A stretch of DNA of 64,000 nucleotides from Helicobacter didelphidarum (GTDB taxonomy: Bacteria > Campylobacterota > Campylobacteria > Campylobacterales > Helicobacteraceae), in the NCBI RefSeq assembly GCF_003364195.1, contig NZ_NXLQ01000001.1, positions 248,001 through 312,000 of the forward strand, given 5' to 3'. The notes under the pieces were generated by a model. The model was not told the DNA's origin. It made no database searches and saw nothing but the letters and a program-made list of their open reading frames with translations. The translations under genes were made by a program, and so were the position numbers. How positions within the stretch are numbered: position 1 is the first letter of the stretch; each line of letters begins with the position of its first letter. Shown here in pieces: positions 24,899-48,177 of the stretch.

Positions 24899-25891
24899 TT
24901 GACTTTTATAGATTTTTGTAGTGGCATTGGTGGTGGGCGACTAGGATTAGAACTCAATGGCTTTCAATGTCTTGGGTTTAGCGAGATTGACAAAGAAGCA
25001 ATTAAGACTTATAAAAGCTTTTTTGACACAACCAATGAGCTAGAATTAGGGGACTTGACAAATATTAATCCATATAATTTACCTGATTTTGATTTGCTTA
25101 TTTCTGGATTCCCTTGTCAAACTTTTAGTATTGTGGGTAAAAGAGAGGGGCTAGAGAATTTGGATAAAGGACAAATAATTTTTTATTTAAGCAAGATCCT
25201 AGCAATTAAGCAACCAAGTTATTTTATCCTCGAAAATGTCAAAGGCTTAATCAATCACAATAAAGGTAAAACGCTCAAAATAATATTAGAATTATTAGAA
25301 TCTTGTGGCTATAATATCTCCTATCAACTCTTAAATACTTTAGATTTTGATTTACCACAGAGTAGAGAAAGAGTATATTTTGTTGGAATAAGAAAAGATT
25401 TGGGAATTAAATTCTCTTTCGAAACAAAAATTTTTCAAGATTCTAAGATACAAATAAAAGATTTTTTAAATCCAAGCAATGAAAATATATTTGATAATAA
25501 TGTAGAATCTTATAAGACTTTTTTAAAATATATTAATAATAAATATAATATTAATCGAATTAATTTAGATGAACTCTTAAAATATGATTTTTTAATCATT
25601 GATACGAGGCAAAGTGATTTAAGAATCTATAAAAATAAAATTCCAACGCTAAGAAGAGATAGGCAAGGTTTGCTTTATGTGTTTAATGGGGTTCTTTATA
25701 AGTTAAGTGCTTTAGAGGCTTTAGCATTGCAGGGATTTAATAAATTACCAAATTTACAAAATAAAATTAAAAGTCTTAAAACAAGTGATATTTTAAGACA
25801 AGCCGGAAATGCTATGAGTGTAAATGTGATAGAAGATATTGCGAGTAATATTTTAAAAATGATAACTAAAAAAGATGTGTCTAATGGATAA
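24899..25891 (+). CDS. DNA (cytosine-5)-methyltransferase, HinP1I/HhaI type (GCGC)
   Basis: Protective methylase of a type II system. Of 330 residues, the m5C motifs appear in order: I (FIDFCSGIGGGRLGLEL), IV with the catalytic cysteine (SGFPCQTFSIVGKREG), VI (FILENVKGL), VIII (QSRERVYFVGIRKDL), a variable target-recognition region (about 185-270), and IX-X (ALEALALQGF; ILRQAGNAMSVNVIEDI). The start is a TTG at 24899 after AGGG. The recognition sequence GCGC is inferred from the partner endonuclease. Overlaps that gene by 8 bases. Confidence 0.93.
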   Translation: MTFIDFCSGIGGGRLGLELNGFQCLGFSEIDKEAIKTYKSFFDTTNELELGDLTNINPYNLPDFDLLISGFPCQTFSIVGKREGLENLDKGQIIFYLSKILAIKQPSYFILENVKGLINHNKGKTLKIILELLESCGYNISYQLLNTLDFDLPQSRERVYFVGIRKDLGIKFSFETKIFQDSKIQIKDFLNPSNENIFDNNVESYKTFLKYINNKYNINRINLDELLKYDFLIIDTRQSDLRIYKNKIPTLRRDRQGLLYVFNGVLYKLSALEALALQGFNKLPNLQNKIKSLKTSDILRQAGNAMSVNVIEDIASNILKMITKKDVSNG

Positions 25892-26666
25892 GGTAGAACT
25901 TGGTTCAAAAACCGCTAAAGATGGTTTTAGAAATGAAAATTTTGTAATCAATACTTTTAATGATTGGGAAAATAATAATTTAGCAAAAGAATGGCTAGAA
26001 TCTATGGGCTATAATTTAAAAGAAATTGAGAGTGTAAAAGCAGAAAAAATAAAAGGAAGTTTCAAAGCAGATATACAAGTTGTAGTGAATGTAGCTGTAA
26101 AACTTAAGAAGCTTCAAGATGTCCAAAATATTCAAGTGAAGCTTGTATCAAATCCACAAGGTTTTAATCAAATTGATAAACGATATTTAAAATCTTATGT
26201 AGAATTATGGAAAATTCCTGATGATATTTTAGAGATTTTACGATATTTTGTAGGTGAAAATTGCCCAAAGATTCTTAATCCAAGAGATAAGCGAAGAATG
26301 TTTTTTAATGAATTTAGCCAAATAGAACAAAATAAAATTTTACAATTTTTTACAGAAAATAAAACTATGATACTCAATGATATTCTAAAAGGTAGAGGAC
26401 AGTTTGCTAGTGAGTGGTTTTTAGTAATTTTAAAGATTAAGGATAACAATCTTAAGTGGATTTTAAAATCAATCAATGAAGTAATAAATTTTTATGATGG
26501 AAAAGTAGCTTTTTCTCCTCATGGGAGTTTAAAAATTGGTAAAATTACAATGCAGAGAAAAGGGGGTAATGGAGGTAGAGAAAGTGCTAAGATGTTGCAA
26601 TTTAAAATCAACCCATGTGAGTTATTCAATTGTTGTCAATTTGAATCATGTATAAAAACTCACTAA
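25884..26666 (+). CDS. Type II restriction endonuclease, HinP1I-like (predicted G^CGC)
   Basis: About 260 residues, very like R.HinP1I as I remember it along the full length: N-terminus MDKVELGSKTAKDGF, then IQVKLVSNPQGFNQIDKR, DKRRMFFNEFSQIEQN, DILKGRGQFASEWFLV, ITMQRKGGNGGRES and KMLQFKINPCELF. HinP1I cuts GCGC leaving two-base 5' CG overhangs; the PD-(D/E)XK-type core residues sit in the FKADIQVVVN and QVKLVS region. I chose the ATG at 25884 (MDKVELG) over one at 25875 because it matches the family N-terminus. The start overlaps the methylase stop, so expression is coupled. Confidence 0.9.
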   Translation: MDKVELGSKTAKDGFRNENFVINTFNDWENNNLAKEWLESMGYNLKEIESVKAEKIKGSFKADIQVVVNVAVKLKKLQDVQNIQVKLVSNPQGFNQIDKRYLKSYVELWKIPDDILEILRYFVGENCPKILNPRDKRRMFFNEFSQIEQNKILQFFTENKTMILNDILKGRGQFASEWFLVILKIKDNNLKWILKSINEVINFYDGKVAFSPHGSLKIGKITMQRKGGNGGRESAKMLQFKINPCELFNCCQFESCIKTH

Positions 26667-39402: not shown

Positions 39403-39479
39403 CGGAGTATAGCGCAGCTTGATAGCGCACACCCTTGGGGTGGGTGAGGTCGTGGGTTTGAATCCCGCTACTCCGACCA
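39403..39479 (+). tRNA. tRNA-Pro (anticodon GGG)
   Basis: A full cloverleaf folds by hand: acceptor CGGAGTA/TACTCCG, D stem GCGC/GCGC, anticodon stem CACCC/GGGTG around loop TTGGGGT, T stem GTGGG/CCCGC around TTTGAAT, discriminator A and encoded CCA. Anticodon GGG is at 39437-39439 with G at position 37, as in tRNA-Pro that needs TrmD methylation. Reads CCC and CCU. Confidence 0.96.
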
Positions 39480-39696: not shown

Positions 39697-41288
39697 ATGC
39701 AAAAAATCATTAATTTTATTGTATTGTTTCTATGTATTCCGCATACTGCTTTTGCATATTTAGATCCAGGTACAGGATCATTATTGCTCTCATCCATTAT
39801 AGCCATTATTGCTTCAGGCATGTTTTTCTTAAAAAGTTTTTTTTATAAAGCAAAAGCTTTCTTAGATACTAATGGGGGGGGGGGGGGAAATCCCGCAATT
39901 CTCGTGGTAATATCTTTAGACAAAAAGATGCACATGGCATAGTCATTTACAATGAGGGTAAGCAATATTATAGCGTTTTTCACCCTATTGTAACATGTTT
40001 AGAATCTTTAAAATATCCTTATACTTATTACACTTCAAGTCCAAACGACCCTCTTTTATCACAGCCTCATCATGAATTAGCACAAGTCGAATTTATCGGC
40101 GATAGCAATAAAGCGTATATGAAGCTCAATAGCCTTAGAGCTGATATAGTCTTAATGACTACCCCACAGCTTGAAGTCTTGCAAATCAAACGTAGCAAAG
40201 GTGTAAAACATTATTGTCATATTATTCATTCACTTCCTCATGTTGATAATTACGAAGTGTTTGCACTTGATTATTTTGATAGTATTTTTACAAATTCTCC
40301 AATCCATAATGATTTTATTCGTCAAGTTGAAAAAGTCCGTAATTTACCAACAAAACAAATTACAATCACAGGTTGCACTTATTTAGATGTATTAGATTCT
40401 AAACTCAAAAAATTTCAAGCACAACTTGCAAAGAATGAAATATTAATATATGAGAATCAGGAAATAAAACCTATAACTTCTTTTTTCACAAATAAAGCAG
40501 ATTCTGATAAATACACAATTTTAATCTCACCGTCATGGGGGCGTGAAGCAATTTTAAGTAAATATGGTATGAAGGTTATCTCTCCCCTTATAGATTCAAA
40601 TTTTAATATCATCATACGTCCGCATCCACAAACTTATATTTCAGAATCTCATATCTTAGAAAATCTTAAAGCTCAAACCAAAGATTGTCCAAATATAAAA
40701 TGGGATAGTAATATAGATAACATTTATGCTATGCAAGAAGCGGATTTAATGCTTGGTGATTTCTCTGGGATTTTATTTGATTTTCTTTGTCTTTTTTCTA
40801 AACCTATTGCCACAATGGAATTCAACTTTAATATCACAGGATATGATTTAGAGGATATTTATGACACTCCGTGGGTAAAAGGTGCGTTGCAAAAAATTGG
40901 CAGGAGTATCAAAGATGAAGAAATACCCAATCTTGCATCTGTTTTAGAATCTTTTTTAGAAGATAAATCTGGAATCTTAAATAAAAATATAGCTGAAATG
41001 AAAGAACTACTTTGGCATTATCAAGGCACAAGTGCAGAAGTTAGCACAAAAGAGCTTTTGAAAATACATAGGAATATTTTGGAATCTTCACTTGGGGAAA
41101 AATATTCTATTTACCAGCATTTATCATGTCTTAATGCAATCTTAGATTCTACAACAATGTATCAAACTAAAGATTCTAATATTTCGGAGAATGAAATGCG
41201 AAATAATATATTCTCAAATCAATTGCAAAATAAAGCTCAAACAGCATATAACTATTCTTTTGTTTCTAATGTAGGAGGGGGACAATGA
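39697..41288 (+). CDS. Phase-variable CDP-glycerol glycerophosphotransferase-like protein (OFF)
   Basis: Start ATG after AAGGATG gives a signal/membrane segment, then the motif AYLDPGTGSLLLSS and a second helix. A G14 tract at 39874-39887 then throws the frame into a stop at 39942 (81 residues). In the next frame the sequence is open without interruption from the tract to 41288. With one more G (or two fewer) a 530-residue protein results. The C-terminal part has the TagB/TagF-type signatures IIIRPHPQTYI and ADLMLGDFSGILFDFL, the fold that moves a phospho-alcohol from a CDP donor to a surface glycan. The stop overlaps the next gene's start (ATGA). Acceptor and donor are unknown; a choline-type donor is inferred from the neighbours. 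Confidence 0.88.
39874..39887 (+). repeat. G14 phase-variation tract
   Basis: Fourteen consecutive Gs inside a coding frame, between a signal/membrane segment and the transferase domain. Length 14 is out of frame; 12 or 15 would be in frame. Poly-G tracts of this size change length at high rates in Helicobacter and Campylobacter. Confidence 0.95.
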
Positions 41289-44053
41289 TTGATATTTTAT
41301 ATTATATTTGCATCTTTCCTTTGGAGAATGTATTGGATTGGTTATTTGGTAGATTTAGACTTTGGACCCATAATAGTAGTGGAATGGGCATTATTCTCTC
41401 TAGTCTTACTGTGAATCTCATCTTGTTAAAATTATTTTTATACACAGATAAAAAGGCACAACAAGAAAGTGACTTAAAAGCAAAGTTAGATTCTCGTATA
41501 AAAGGGTGGAAAAAGGTTTATAAAGGTGCAAAGCTTCATGCTTTTACAAATGCACTTTATAGACAACATAAATATCACCCAATCTATGCTTTGCGTAGCC
41601 TTGGTGGTTTGGCGTTACAGATTCCATTCTTTTGGGCTATGTATCTTGTTATTAAGAAATCAGAAGTTCTTGCTGGCAATAGCTTTCTATGGATTGGAGA
41701 TTTATCTCAACCAGATCTTGTTTATGGTGTGCATGTTTTGCCACTTTTAATGACACTTTTTACCCTTATAAATGTATTTTGTTTATCAAAGGAGTTGGGT
41801 GCTAGGATACAAGGCTCATTGATTGCACTGCTTTTCCTTGTGCTACTTTATAACATGCCATCAGCACTTGTTTTATATTGGTGTGTGAATATGTTGTTTT
41901 CTTTGCTCAAGACATTATCTGTGAAATTGATAGAAAGAAGGAAGGAAATTTGTGATACATATAACAAAAACAAAGATTCTCTTGATTTAGATTCTAAAGA
42001 TTTAGATAATATAACAAAATACTTCAATAATCTTTTATCGCAATATAATCAAGATTTTACAAAGATTGGTTTTTTGCAGAAGTCAAAATTATGGTTTAAG
42101 GGGCTTTTTGAATCGTATCCTAAATTTTTGATTAAGCTAGATTCTCAACAAATAGGGCTTGTTGTGAATAATTTTCTTGTGCAACAAGCATCTAGTGTTG
42201 TTTCTATAAAAGAACACAATTGCAATAAAGATTCCATAAAAGCATATTTGCAAATGCAAATACAAGCCAAACAAAGCCAGTTTTTATCTTTTCAGAATCT
42301 TATAAAATGGATTATTCTTAGTGCTTGTTTTATTATATGTATTTTCTCTCCTTATGGTGTGTATAGCTCTGATGTATCGCAGTTTAATCTTGCTTATACT
42401 TATAATACGCTAGAGGTTATGTTTGGTTGTTTTTTACTGCTTTCATTAAGCCTTTTATACTTTATTAGTTTTTTTTCTTATACGCGTGTTTTTAAAATTG
42501 TTGTTGGGCTTTTCTTTGCATTTTTATTACTTGGGGTGAGTTACACATTTGTGCTTACTGGGGATTATGGTCTTATGACTGATTTCGTCTTTGCTAATAT
42601 GCCTTCTGTAAGCACAAGGGATAGCATCATAGATATTGTTCTCTGCGTTGTTTTCGTTGTGTTCGCATTTGCTTTACTTGCTTGGCGATATAGCATTTAT
42701 CTTGTTAAAATTATTTTTATTGTGGCATTTGTGATGAGTCTTGTATTTGCTGGGAATATCATTAGCTATGTGCAAAGCCATCAATTTCTTATTGCTGAAG
42801 ATTCCAAAGATACAAAAGTGAAAACACGAGAGAGAAATTTTATTACGAAAAATACACAGGAAGTCGATCCACTATTTGATTTCTCAAAAGAGAAAAATAA
42901 TGTGTTAGTCATTATCTTAGATAGAGCCGATGGATATTCTATCAATCAGCATATAGAAAATTATAAAGATATTGCAAATAAATATGATGGCTTTACTTAC
43001 TTTGATAGAGTATTATCCACTTCTGGTAATACTGCACAAACACTTGCAAGTATCATTGCTGGGGAATACTATACCGGGCATAATATCAATCAAAGATATA
43101 CAAAATATGGCTCATGGAAAGAAATAGCGCAAGGCTATGCTGGAATCTTTAATGCCTTTCATAGTGCGGGGTATAAGACAGCAGGTATTGTTGAATGGCC
43201 ACTTGATGGCGCGTATTTTTATCCCTTAGTTAAAGAGAAAAATGATGTTATATTCAATACAGAAAAATATGAGACATTTTACAGACAGCAACATGGTATT
43301 TCAGAAGATTTTCACAAGAGAATCCCATTTTCAAAGCTTTTTTCATTTGGTGTGTTTAGATTTGCTACATATAGTATGCGTCCAAAGGTTTATAAAAGTG
43401 GCTTTTGGTTATTTAGAGTGAAGAGCGTAAAATTATCCCCTATTGCTGAAGTCTATGCCTTTAAGGAACTCATTTCTAATCGCACCACACAATCAACATT
43501 TAAATTTTTCCATTTTGATATAACACATGATCCTTATTTACTTGATTCTAAATGCGAATATACAGAAAATTTTGGTGAACATAAAACAAGTGAAATATGC
43601 GCTCTAAAATGGATTGCTGAAGCAATAGATAAGATGAAGAAATTAGGAATATATGATAATACAGAAATATTTATCACAGCAGATCATGGTGCACATGGCA
43701 TATCAGATTCTGTATTGCCTATCAAACAAAACTTCGTTGTGCCATTTTTCTATAAGCCATATAATGCAAGAGGTGAGCTACAAATCAATCATGCAAATCT
43801 TGTCAATTATGATTTAGCCACAATCTTTTGTGCAAATATCGCCAAGAGTGAGACACCATGTCCGCATGTCGCACAAAATATTTTAGAGAATCTACCAAAA
43901 GATAGAATAATTCTGACATATGACATGGGATGGAAATTTAACAAAAATTATTTTATACCATACACTTACTACGAATTTACCCCCAACCAATCAGGTGATA
44001 TATACGACCCAAAAAACTGGAAAGATGTAACGGAAAAATATAAGGATAAATAG
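41285..44053 (+). CDS. YidC/Oxa1-like domain fused to alkaline-phosphatase-superfamily phosphotransferase
   Basis: A 922-residue inner-membrane protein. Residues 1-215 follow the YidC/Oxa1 plan: entry helix, the SSLTVNLILLKLFLYTDKKA helix, a charged hairpin (KLDSRIKGWKKVYKGAKLHA), HPIYALRSLGGLALQIPFFWAMY, then two more helices. The groove arginine of insertases appears to be Asn44. A soluble linker (215-335) and a second bundle of about six helices (335-505) follow. Residues 538-900 are a sulfatase/LtaS/EptA-type domain: metal Asp in VLVIILDRADG (D546), probable Thr nucleophile T583 in SGNTAQTLASIIAG, and ITADHGAHG (D800, H801). Thr rather than Cys favours a phosphotransferase. A strong GGAGGGGG site precedes the start, inside the previous gene. 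Confidence 0.85.
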   Translation: MIDILYYICIFPLENVLDWLFGRFRLWTHNSSGMGIILSSLTVNLILLKLFLYTDKKAQQESDLKAKLDSRIKGWKKVYKGAKLHAFTNALYRQHKYHPIYALRSLGGLALQIPFFWAMYLVIKKSEVLAGNSFLWIGDLSQPDLVYGVHVLPLLMTLFTLINVFCLSKELGARIQGSLIALLFLVLLYNMPSALVLYWCVNMLFSLLKTLSVKLIERRKEICDTYNKNKDSLDLDSKDLDNITKYFNNLLSQYNQDFTKIGFLQKSKLWFKGLFESYPKFLIKLDSQQIGLVVNNFLVQQASSVVSIKEHNCNKDSIKAYLQMQIQAKQSQFLSFQNLIKWIILSACFIICIFSPYGVYSSDVSQFNLAYTYNTLEVMFGCFLLLSLSLLYFISFFSYTRVFKIVVGLFFAFLLLGVSYTFVLTGDYGLMTDFVFANMPSVSTRDSIIDIVLCVVFVVFAFALLAWRYSIYLVKIIFIVAFVMSLVFAGNIISYVQSHQFLIAEDSKDTKVKTRERNFITKNTQEVDPLFDFSKEKNNVLVIILDRADGYSINQHIENYKDIANKYDGFTYFDRVLSTSGNTAQTLASIIAGEYYTGHNINQRYTKYGSWKEIAQGYAGIFNAFHSAGYKTAGIVEWPLDGAYFYPLVKEKNDVIFNTEKYETFYRQQHGISEDFHKRIPFSKLFSFGVFRFATYSMRPKVYKSGFWLFRVKSVKLSPIAEVYAFKELISNRTTQSTFKFFHFDITHDPYLLDSKCEYTENFGEHKTSEICALKWIAEAIDKMKKLGIYDNTEIFITADHGAHGISDSVLPIKQNFVVPFFYKPYNARGELQINHANLVNYDLATIFCANIAKSETPCPHVAQNILENLPKDRIILTYDMGWKFNKNYFIPYTYYEFTPNQSGDIYDPKNWKDVTEKYKDK

Positions 44054-44136
44054 GGAATATTTATATGTAATACTATCGAATTTATGGCAGTCAAATATAA
44101 GATTTCACAATTTATAAATCTATAAAAAGGAAAAAT

Positions 44137-45615
44137 ATGAAAGCTATTATTCTTGCAGCAGGGATGGGCACTAGATTAGCTCCTATGACATTACTAAAAC
44201 CAAAGCCACTCTTAGAAATTCGTGGCATAGCTTTGCTTGAAAATATGATTAAGCATTTGCAAGCTGGGGGAGTGAATGATATAATTGTTGTTACTGGATA
44301 CAAAAGTGAATTATTTACACCTTATGCAAAAAGATTAGGTTTTAAGCAAATAACTTATAGTGATTATGCCACGAAAAATAGTGCCGCTTCCTTAAAGCTT
44401 GTGATTGATGAAATGCAAAAAGGTAGCATTATTCTTAATGGAGATTTGTATCTTACAGAATCTTTTTTCCAATATATTAAACCAAATGTTTCACAATTTA
44501 TTGCACAAACGATTACAAATAATGTCATATCTTGGGGATATATTACAGATTCTAACTTTAAAATACAAGATATAGATACAAATGCGACAAGCGGGTATGG
44601 TGATGGAATTGCTGTATTTGATAATGAAAAAGATATTGAGATTTTCAAGCAAGAATTAGAAAAATGTAGCGATGATGAGTATTGGGAATATTGTGTCCTG
44701 CGTTCTTTGACAAAAATCGATTGCTATGCTTTTCATCATAATACTTATGTAGAGATTGATTCTTTTCAAGATGCTTTATATCATGATTTATTAACTCCAG
44801 AAGATATTGCTGTGCAATGTAGTGATGATTCGCATATACAAAGACTTGGTGGTATAACAAATATTAATTATAAAATTACATTTTTAGGACAAGAAAAAGT
44901 TATTAGAATCCCGCGAAAAGGAATAGAAAATATTGTCAATAGAGATTCAGAAAAAGAAATTATATCGCTTTTACAGAATACAGATATAACAACACAATGT
45001 GAATTCTATGATAGTAATATCAAGCTTTCTACATTTTTAAATGATTATAGAATCTTAACTTTTGAAGATATAAAAAATAAAGAAAAAATTTTTCCACTTA
45101 TTGTAGAAAAACTTAAAAAACTGCATTCTTTTACATTCAAAGATTATCCTACATTTCAATCAATTAGCATGGTAGGTGAAATAGTAAAATTTGAAAAACT
45201 TGCAAAAATCCCATTACTCACTCAACAAGAACACAAGCTATTACTAAACATTGCAAGAAAGATGGATAAAGATATTTCTGTGCTATGCCACAGGGATTTG
45301 CAACTTCCAAATATTATGTATAATGGATGTGAAGTAAAATTTATTGATTTTGAATATGCAGGGTTTTGCTCAATTGCTTGGGAAATAGGGAATCTTAGTG
45401 CCGAACTTGAATTAAATAAAGATGAGATTCTCTATTTTATTTCTCTATATGATAAGATTACTTATCTTGAAGTCATTGAGGGGCAATTACTTTCAAATTA
45501 CATTTGGGCTTTGTGGGGATTTATCTACAATCGTATTGATGTAGCTCGTAATTATATTAAGCGATTAGATTCCAATCTTGCAATATTACAATCTCAAGAA
45601 ATGGAATTCTCATGA
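44137..45615 (+). CDS. LicC-LicA-type fusion: CTP:phosphocholine cytidylyltransferase and choline kinase
   Basis: A 492-residue bifunctional protein. Residues 1-225 are a nucleotidyltransferase: AIILAAGMGTRLAPMTLLKPKPLLEI, LNGDLYL with the metal Asp, and ATSGYGDGIAVF. Residues 230-490 are a choline/ethanolamine-kinase fold: RLGGITNINYKI and KVIRIPRKG at the ATP lobe, then the catalytic LCHRDLQLPNIMYNG and KFIDFEYAG. Together they would phosphorylate an amino alcohol and make its CDP form. A similar licCA fusion is known from Treponema denticola, there for phosphatidylcholine. Start follows AAAAAGGAAAAAT; the 3' end overlaps the permease gene. Choline versus ethanolamine is not resolved. Confidence 0.88.
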   Translation: MKAIILAAGMGTRLAPMTLLKPKPLLEIRGIALLENMIKHLQAGGVNDIIVVTGYKSELFTPYAKRLGFKQITYSDYATKNSAASLKLVIDEMQKGSIILNGDLYLTESFFQYIKPNVSQFIAQTITNNVISWGYITDSNFKIQDIDTNATSGYGDGIAVFDNEKDIEIFKQELEKCSDDEYWEYCVLRSLTKIDCYAFHHNTYVEIDSFQDALYHDLLTPEDIAVQCSDDSHIQRLGGITNINYKITFLGQEKVIRIPRKGIENIVNRDSEKEIISLLQNTDITTQCEFYDSNIKLSTFLNDYRILTFEDIKNKEKIFPLIVEKLKKLHSFTFKDYPTFQSISMVGEIVKFEKLAKIPLLTQQEHKLLLNIARKMDKDISVLCHRDLQLPNIMYNGCEVKFIDFEYAGFCSIAWEIGNLSAELELNKDEILYFISLYDKITYLEVIEGQLLSNYIWALWGFIYNRIDVARNYIKRLDSNLAILQSQEMEFS

Positions 45616-46517
45616 ATATGATGAAATTGTATGGACATTTATATGCTTTTTTAAGTGTATTTTTTTGGTCAGCACTTTATGTTTCAACAAAGATTCTTTT
45701 AGAATCTTTTACGCCTTTGACATTGCTTATTATGCAATTTATCGTTGGATATACTCTTTTAATATTATGGAAACCAAAAAGACTAAGAACAAAAAATATG
45801 AAAGAAGAGGTATATTTTATTCTTGCTGGATTATTTGGAATCACAATCTATAATCTCTTTTTAAATCTTGCAATGGATTATTCACTTGCTTCAAATGTCA
45901 GTGTCATTATTGCTACTGCACCACTTTTTACAGGAATTTTTTCATTTATCCTCAAAATAGAAAAGCCATATATTAATTTTTTTATTGGTTTTTGTATTTG
46001 TATTGTGGGTATTTTTCTTTTAAGCTTTAATGGAAATTTCAATATTTCTATTAATCCATTGGGTGATTTTTTTGCGATTATTTCTGCTATTGGTTGGGGA
46101 ATCTATGCAGTTATTATCGCACGGATAACAAAAATGAACTATGATATTATTTTGACAACGCGAAGAGTAATATTTTATGGTATTGTTTTTATTATTCCTG
46201 CATTTTTCTTTTTAGATATTCATTTTGATATTGAAAAACTTACAAAGCCTATCAATTTCTTAAATCTTTTATTTTTAGGAGTATTTTCCTCTGGTATCTG
46301 TTTTATTATATGGAACAAAGCCACCCAATTAATTGGTGCGGTTAAAACAAATATCTATGTCTATCTCACACCTATCATTACGATAGTGGTATCAATGATT
46401 GTATTAGATGAAAAAATAACATTTGTGATGTTTATTGGAATCATTCTTACACTCCTTGGGGTAATCCTCTCAGAATATAAAAATGCAAAAACACAAGGTA
46501 AAAAAGATTCTCTGTGA
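45612..46517 (+). CDS. DMT/EamA-family permease, LicB-like
   Basis: A 301-residue transporter with ten hydrophobic helices in two EamA repeats (residues about 8-145 and 150-290). LicB, the choline permease of the Haemophilus lic1 locus, belongs to the same superfamily. The start codon overlaps the stop of the licCA-like gene in ATGA (a second ATG lies six bases on), so both products are made together, which supports a role in importing the kinase substrate. By sequence alone it could be a general metabolite exporter; the choline assignment rests on context. Confidence 0.8.
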   Translation: MNMMKLYGHLYAFLSVFFWSALYVSTKILLESFTPLTLLIMQFIVGYTLLILWKPKRLRTKNMKEEVYFILAGLFGITIYNLFLNLAMDYSLASNVSVIIATAPLFTGIFSFILKIEKPYINFFIGFCICIVGIFLLSFNGNFNISINPLGDFFAIISAIGWGIYAVIIARITKMNYDIILTTRRVIFYGIVFIIPAFFFLDIHFDIEKLTKPINFLNLLFLGVFSSGICFIIWNKATQLIGAVKTNIYVYLTPIITIVVSMIVLDEKITFVMFIGIILTLLGVILSEYKNAKTQGKKDSL

Positions 46518-46884: not shown

Positions 46885-48177
46885 ATGCGTATGACACAAG
46901 CCCTTGCAGATTTTATCAAAAGTGAATCTTTTGGTGGGATTTTTCTTGCAATAAGCACACTGATGGCATTAGGTATTGCAAATTCTCCTCTACAACATTA
47001 TTATCGTGAGTTTTTTCATTATGAATTTGGATTTACTTTTAATAAATATCATATCGGTATGTCCTTGCGTGATTGGATTAATGATGTTTTAATGTCATTT
47101 TTCTTTCTTTTGGTTGGTTTGGAAATTAAGCGTGAAATGCTATTTGGTGAGTTAAATTCATTCTCTAAGGCTGCCTTTCCGGCAATTGCGGCTATTGGTG
47201 GCATGATTGTTCCTGGTGTAATATATTATGCTCTCAATTATGATACAAATTCTTCACATGGTTTTGGAATCCCAATGGCAACAGATATAGCGTTTGCTTT
47301 AGGTGTTATGCTTATGCTTGGTAAACGCGTTCCAACAGCATTAAAAATCTTTTTGGTAACACTTGCCGTTGTTGATGATTTGGGTGCAATTGTAGTTATT
47401 GCCTTATTTTATGGTGGAAATATTCAAGTGATGTGGTTAGCTGTCGCTGGTATAATTATCATTGTTCTTACACTTTGTAATTCAAAAGGCATAAAATTAT
47501 TAAGAGTGTATTTAATATTGGGAGTTCTTTTATGGATATTTGTACACATGAGTGGTATCCATGCAACAATAGCTGCGGTCGTGCTTGCATTTTGTATTCC
47601 TGTGCGAGCAAAACAAGATTTTTCGGCTTTTCAGGCACAATTGAATGAATGGTCAAAAATAAAAGTTTACCAGACACAAGAAGATTCTGTTTTGCTTGAT
47701 GCACATAAAGTTGAATTTATTCATGAAATTCGTGAAAATATTCTTCACACTCAAAATCCGCTTTTGCGTTTAGAACACTTTTTGCAACCTTGGAGTGCAT
47801 ATTTTATTATGCCTTTATTTGCATTTGCAAATGCAGGTGTAACATTGCAATCAAATTTTAATTTTCATATTGATCATATTTTTTTAGGTATTTTTTTAGG
47901 ATTAGTCGTTGGAAAACCAGTTGGAATATTCCTCACAACATTCCTTTGTGAAAAATTTGGTATAGCAAAACGACCAACAGGAATCTCATGGTTACATATT
48001 ATTGGTGCTGGTATGCTTGCTGGGATAGGCTTTACTATGTCACTCTTTGTTTCAGGATTAGCATTTGATAATGAAGCTGCACGCGAATTATCGAAAGTTA
48101 CAATTTTAATTGCTTCATTATCATCATGTATTGTTGGTGTAATTTTTTTACTTTTAATAGGAAAATCTAAAAATTAA
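46885..48177 (+). CDS. nhaA: Na+/H+ antiporter NhaA
   Basis: Exchanges cytoplasmic sodium for protons across the inner membrane, for pH and salt balance. It has 430 residues and about twelve helices; the ion-binding pair is in LAVVDDLGAIVVIALFY, after ATDIAFALGVMLMLGKRVP. A stretch of about 40 hydrophilic residues (around 245-290) separates the two halves, as in Helicobacter NhaA. Start ATG follows TTAGGAGT. Ahead of yajC-secD-secF, an order I recall from H. pylori. Confidence 0.96.
   Translation: MRMTQALADFIKSESFGGIFLAISTLMALGIANSPLQHYYREFFHYEFGFTFNKYHIGMSLRDWINDVLMSFFFLLVGLEIKREMLFGELNSFSKAAFPAIAAIGGMIVPGVIYYALNYDTNSSHGFGIPMATDIAFALGVMLMLGKRVPTALKIFLVTLAVVDDLGAIVVIALFYGGNIQVMWLAVAGIIIIVLTLCNSKGIKLLRVYLILGVLLWIFVHMSGIHATIAAVVLAFCIPVRAKQDFSAFQAQLNEWSKIKVYQTQEDSVLLDAHKVEFIHEIRENILHTQNPLLRLEHFLQPWSAYFIMPLFAFANAGVTLQSNFNFHIDHIFLGIFLGLVVGKPVGIFLTTFLCEKFGIAKRPTGISWLHIIGAGMLAGIGFTMSLFVSGLAFDNEAARELSKVTILIASLSSCIVGVIFLLLIGKSKN

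Follow-up and report, generated by a model that had tools for sequence, protein, structure and literature searches.

A candidate phase-variable, LicD-independent system for phosphocholine decoration, built of two exchangeable modules, in Helicobacter didelphidarum

The window analysed here is a stretch of 64,000 nucleotides from the Helicobacter didelphidarum genome assembly, which comprises 249 contigs. It carries four genes on the plus strand (positions 39697–46517), located between a tRNA-Pro gene (39403–39479) and an open reading frame (ORF) at 46885 that resembles nhaA. The genes are tightly packed, with ATGA overlaps at 41285 (genes 1 and 2) and 45612 (genes 3 and 4), correctly placed already in the initial annotation, and a spacing of 83 bases between genes 2 and 3. 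Profile matches support the families assigned there to the first three products—a TagF-like enzyme, a fusion of a YidC-like with an LtaS-like domain, and a LicC-LicA fusion. Elsewhere in the window (24899–26666), an ORF resembling DNA cytosine methyltransferases overlaps an ORF of 263 amino acids, perhaps constituting a restriction-modification pair.

Gene 1 falls into three parts on the plus strand: a 5′ part (39697–39873) encoding two predicted transmembrane (TM) helices around a conserved YLDPGTGS motif (residues 4–22 and 27–45 by hydropathy), a tract of 14 G (39874–39887), and the catalytic body of the TagF-like enzyme (39888–41288). The YLDPGTGS motif is kept in relatives. With the tract length as assembled, the frame is broken: the 5′ part runs into a stop at codon 82, and a different frame is the one open through the catalytic body; thus, the TagF-like family assignment stands, but the intact ORF initially assumed does not. 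Since the window copy is out of frame, the TagF alignment and fold were taken from relatives. In the profile search, gene 1 reached 22.9 bits for PF04464 (Glyphos_transf) against a cut-off of 22.1, a low score that is supported by the fold of the H. muridarum orthologue, the model of which matches TagF (3l7i) best and also 8qoy. The PF04464 fold and the RPHP motif of TagF polymerases are both present, the latter as an invariant RPHPQ in the aligned TagF-like bodies.

The 14-G tract, a candidate phase-variation switch, lies far above chance expectation, with a run of at least 12 G occurring in none of 100 shuffles of the window. Tracts of 9–14 G near the 5′ end are found in 20 of 24 Helicobacter tagF genes, the window's included (19 of the 23 others), roughly 105–140 bases past the YLDPGTGS codons wherever this motif is readable; spirochaete tagF genes have no G tract at the corresponding place. 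In genomes where LicCA is encoded apart from tagF (G002, G008, G010, G013), the tract sits in the licA half, and in loci with a soluble TagF-like protein (described below), it lies in or near a small ORF in three of four cases. The Helicobacter switch, hence, appears in different genes of one pathway. There is a strong case by analogy that poly-G slippage in tagF would switch the system on and off.

Gene 2 (41285–44053, plus strand) encodes a protein of 922 amino acids, in which a YidC domain (PF02096, 77.8 bits) is followed by a sulfatase domain (PF00884, 47.9 bits); in some relatives (L056, L078, L079), the two parts are separate neighbouring genes. The YidC-like domain (residues 33–213; 41381–41923, plus strand) belongs by its profile score to the PF02096 fold of YidC insertases. 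The groove arginine of YidC is replaced by Asn in the window and by Asn, Gln or Ser across the aligned relatives, whereas the housekeeping YidC of the H. didelphidarum genome retains it. YidC of Escherichia coli scrambles lipids in vitro (PMC10491306); given the loss of the groove arginine, lipid scrambling cannot be assumed for the YidC-like domain.

The LtaS/EptA-type half (42299–44020, plus strand) comprises five TM helices (residues 339–489), followed by an outer catalytic domain. As a sequence search of the PDB with this half returned weak sulfatase matches only, fold comparison was used. In the structure model of the fusion (pLDDT 75.7), Foldseek matched it to PbgA (6v8q/6xlp) and MCR-1 (9nww). 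Residues D546, T583, H748, D800, H801 and D843 are invariant in 33 of 33 aligned relatives, among them Helicobacter and spirochaetes, and the layout known from LtaS, EptA and PptA is found here as well: TM helices come first, then an outer domain of the sulfatase fold that keeps the metal ligands and the position of the Thr nucleophile. We infer that the sulfatase-fold half should face outward with its Thr nucleophile. Brachyspira has many additional YidC/LtaS fusions (L126, L128, L131, L135, L139, L146, L152–L155) that have neither TagF nor genes for head-group supply in their vicinity. In H. didelphidarum itself, a CptA/EptA-like phosphoethanolamine transferase is encoded on another contig (G000:C180; L186:1360–3153), adjoined by a methyltransferase gene weakly like OlsG/PmtA (L186:775–1326), all these matches lying below curated cut-offs.

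Gene 3 (44137–45615, plus strand) combines an NTP_transferase domain (50.3 bits) with a Choline_kinase domain (PF01633, 62.6 bits). The LicC half (44137–44820, plus strand) resembles CTP:phosphocholine cytidylyltransferases, with pneumococcal LicC (1jyk, 84.7 bits) as the nearest solved structure, and the choline kinase-like LicA half (44821–45615, plus strand) matches pneumococcal LicA (4r77, 51.7 bits). The aromatic residues of the LicC choline box are retained in 20 of 20 distinct LicCA proteins, all of which also have Asn at the position where PntC has Glu; in LicC homologues from phosphonate loci, both Trp residues are never kept together. Structural background for this LicC/PntC comparison is available in the literature, where the choline-box aromatic residues are also described in one characterised PntC (PMC6697681). 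Gene 4 (45612–46517, plus strand), which follows LicCA also in relatives, encodes an EamA/DMT permease (EamA, 153.7 bits). The permease alone gave no sequence match in the PDB, and the gene-4 profile reached LicB (7b0k) at E = 0.018, a weak match, so that the designation as a permease is retained and the original "LicB-like" label is not firmly backed. By family and position, gene 4 is a probable choline importer. LicA-type kinases and EamA permeases differ in substrate, and sequence does not settle specificity; hence, the head group might be another amino-alcohol, such as ethanolamine, handled by the same transfer logic. We consider this quite improbable in view of the Trp box (with the proviso that one PntC shares the aromatic residues) and of LicC and LicA being the best matches among solved structures.

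In the H. didelphidarum genome, the search for LicD returned only a remnant of 80 residues and no intact copy, and the CDP-alcohol family is represented only by PgsA and PssA, neither a choline phosphotransferase nor a phosphatidylcholine synthase belonging to it being encoded. For TagD, TIGR01518 scored only HldE, below its cut-off, and PEP mutase gave no match over the cut-off. This leaves TagF as the only recognised candidate user of CDP-choline; the finding named at the outset as a refutation, a licD or phosphatidylcholine synthase elsewhere in the genome that accounts for the CDP-alcohol, did not materialise. Together with the retained choline box, the lack of PEP mutase, TagD and intact LicD makes choline the best-supported substrate of LicCA, a strongly favoured reading. 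Two further candidates were rejected on the same grounds: a functional LicD elsewhere in the genome, and a phosphonate as the window's own head group. A teichoic-acid-like glycerol-phosphate polymer made from CDP-glycerol, suggested by the families to which TagF and the LtaS-like half belong, was likewise rejected for want of TagD and retains only a minute probability. The LicD remnant (G000:C227:25211–25465; L001, L072) lies by MATE transporter-like fragments and has the appearance of a decayed LicD locus.

Comparison with other genomes shows that the system consists of two exchangeable modules—a supply module (LicCA and permease) and a transfer module (membrane-anchored TagF and the YidC-like/LtaS-like protein). 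A survey of 119 relatives located the fusion, or its two parts as separate genes, in about 20 Helicobacteraceae genomes and in one genome of another family. All four genes stand together in six Helicobacter genomes (that of the window, H. muridarum, H. saguini, H. canis, isolate RGIG5417 and G063), and likewise at two Brachyspira loci, one from B. pilosicoli (L141) and one from another member of the genus (L137); two further Brachyspira loci (L156, L172) have LicCA beside the transfer module with no permease seen. The four-gene arrangement thus recurs in both genera and the genes do travel together; the initial reading needs refinement, however, in that the locus is made of two recombining modules and is not a single four-gene unit, each module being also found without the other. 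At some loci, the transfer module stands without any supply genes in its neighbourhood, and one genome with the module (G057) has neither LicCA nor PEP mutase. Conversely, LicCA and the permease are also found alone or with a soluble TagF-like protein; in G031, G058, G028 and G068 (loci L059, L060, L061 and L063), such a protein (PF04464, 41.9 bits) lies beside LicCA and the permease, together with a small ORF. The small ORF resembles the C-terminal half of a TagF-like enzyme, and this set may constitute a third transfer module.

In 12 other Helicobacter loci, the transfer module adjoins phosphonate genes instead of LicCA. These sets contain PEP mutase (409.8 bits against a cut-off of 319.55) along with a full or partial complement of phosphonopyruvate decarboxylase, a PntC-like cytidylyltransferase, AEP aminotransferase and PsrA. 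H. trogontum and H. anseris are examples of species in which the transfer module adjoins phosphonate genes. In a scan of named genomes, the TagF and YidC pair was also found in Brachyspira, Treponema, Sphaerochaetaceae, a Shewanellaceae MAG, Lentisphaerae and others, and many of these non-Helicobacter loci also carry PEP mutase. In several Helicobacter genomes that lack the transfer module, it is LicD that adjoins the phosphonate genes (G026, G037, G046, G056), which implies that the module occupies the place expected of a head-group transferase. LicCA or PEP mutase is present in 20 of the 21 Helicobacteraceae genomes with the module versus 13 of the 50 without it (Fisher p = 4e-8, kinship ignored). 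The coupling of choline-activation genes to a transfer system other than LicD, as initially proposed, is consequently upheld, both by the conserved co-location and by the reduction of LicD to a remnant. Two arrangements stand apart. At L068 (G053:C2:48000–67900), two copies of tagF and the fusion, with identical tagF bodies, flank Pst-like phosphate uptake genes in opposite orientation, and phosphonate genes adjoin only one of the copies; at L125:750–2588 and L151:10941–12872, a LicC-like domain fused to a class I/II aminotransferase lies by TagF and the fusion, perhaps providing another head-group supply.

In the TagF tree, the supply label switches repeatedly, with at least four changes for choline on well-supported branches. 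Between B. pilosicoli and the window, LicCA and the permease are 63% and 66% identical, as opposed to 39% for TagF, 37% for the YidC-like and 23% for the LtaS-like part. Because the AU test does not reject a monophyletic Brachyspira (p = 0.225), the tree was discarded as proof of LicCA movement between Helicobacter and Brachyspira; the idea of transfer is therefore based on the difference in identity between genes of the locus, which points to a supply cassette that would have moved on its own and now sits beside a resident transfer pair.

Taken as a whole, the locus likely encodes a phase-variable, LicD-independent phosphocholine decoration system made up of two modules. In the proposed pathway, the permease would import choline, which would be phosphorylated by the LicA half and converted to CDP-choline by the LicC half. 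TagF would then move phosphocholine from CDP-choline to a membrane lipid at the inner face, the loaded lipid would get through the membrane by way of the YidC-like domain, and its head group would be taken up by the LtaS/EptA-like domain as a Thr-583 intermediate and handed on to an acceptor outside (LPS, glycan or protein), with poly-G slippage in tagF turning the decoration on or off. Weighing against this reading are the broken tagF frame of the assembly, the loss of the groove arginine from the YidC-like domain, and the loci whose transfer module has no supply genes nearby. The lipid relay within this pathway is inferred with moderate confidence; it is suggested by the membrane-anchored TagF, the scrambling precedent of YidC (PMC10491306), and the outward LtaS-like half.

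The main rival to such a relay is direct transfer, in which TagF would place phosphocholine on a cytoplasmic glycan or glycolipid and the YidC/LtaS protein would serve a separate job, such as the addition of phosphoglycerol or phosphoethanolamine from phospholipids, or help in export. TagF enzymes and capsule polymerases do transfer straight to glycans (compare the fold matches 3l7i and 8qoy), and LicCA stands by a TM-less TagF-like protein without YidC/LtaS in some loci; hence, a lipid step may be dispensable for enzymes of the TagF type. However, TagF and YidC/LtaS are paired across phyla and with both supply types, which favours one shared pathway, and the TagF of the pair is membrane-anchored, unlike the TagF-like protein that accompanies LicCA where YidC/LtaS is absent, suggesting a membrane acceptor. 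On balance, direct transfer appears unlikely. Still less probable is phosphatidylcholine as the end product, as reported for the LicCA pathway of Treponema, with TagF serving as a choline phosphotransferase of an unusual kind and the surface left undecorated. The LicC-LicA fusion, the membrane anchor of TagF and the failure to find any other CDP-choline user would agree with it; the predicted intact outward active site of the LtaS-like half, the absence of a choline phosphotransferase of the CDP-alcohol family from the genome, and phase variation, which is typical of surface structures, speak against it.

Extending the preferred lipid relay beyond choline, we tentatively raise the possibility, at somewhat less than even chance, of a widespread cargo-swappable machine, in which TagF would load phosphocholine or aminoethylphosphonate on a lipid, a repurposed YidC domain would flip it, and the fused LtaS-like domain would transfer the head group to the surface. 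If true, it would constitute a general alternative to LicD and the first role of a YidC-family domain in lipid-linked head-group export, which would give a task to a YidC-like domain without the insertase arginine. The steps of phosphonyl tailoring after C–P bond formation have been called enigmatic by Rice et al. 2019, whose text does not mention TagF, YidC or sulfatase (PMC6697681); a module common to phosphonate and phosphocholine loci would provide named candidate enzymes for this step. Phosphocholine is a surface group that mimics the host, and the module would also add a way to it that bypasses LicD in gut Helicobacter and Brachyspira; for Helicobacter, such a route is not covered by a 2023 survey of phosphocholine decoration genes. 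Among open-licence papers, no published description of the system was found, and searches for YidC together with LtaS and TagF, or for Helicobacter together with aminoethylphosphonate or phosphonate, yielded nothing relevant.

Several known systems share components with the one described here. The LicCA phosphatidylcholine pathway reported for Treponema shares with gene 3 the fusion of LicC with LicA, but the window's genome lacks the choline phosphotransferase of the CDP-alcohol family. With the Lic-1 pathway (licABCD) of Haemophilus, pneumococcus and Campylobacter upsaliensis, the system has in common LicA and LicC homologues, a DMT permease, and predicted phase variability and CDP-choline activation; it differs in that LicC and LicA are fused and that TagF and YidC/LtaS stand in place of LicD. 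In the Pnt phosphonyl tailoring pathways with PntC (PMC6697681), PEP mutase, Ppd, PntC-like and PhnW proteins are the counterparts of genes that adjoin the same TagF and YidC/LtaS module in related loci, whereas in the window LicCA takes their place and PEP mutase is missing from the genome. TagF/TarF and capsule polymerases share PF04464, the RPHP motif and the fold, yet the window's TagF carries two N-terminal TM helices, resides in a genome without TagD, and belongs to a family coupled to LicCA or PntC genes. Finally, the PptA, EptA and LtaS transferases likewise have five TM helices followed by an outer domain of the sulfatase fold, with its Thr nucleophile position and metal ligands; what sets the LtaS-like protein of this system apart is its fusion to, or pairing with, a YidC-like domain and its link to a cytidylyl-activated head-group supply.
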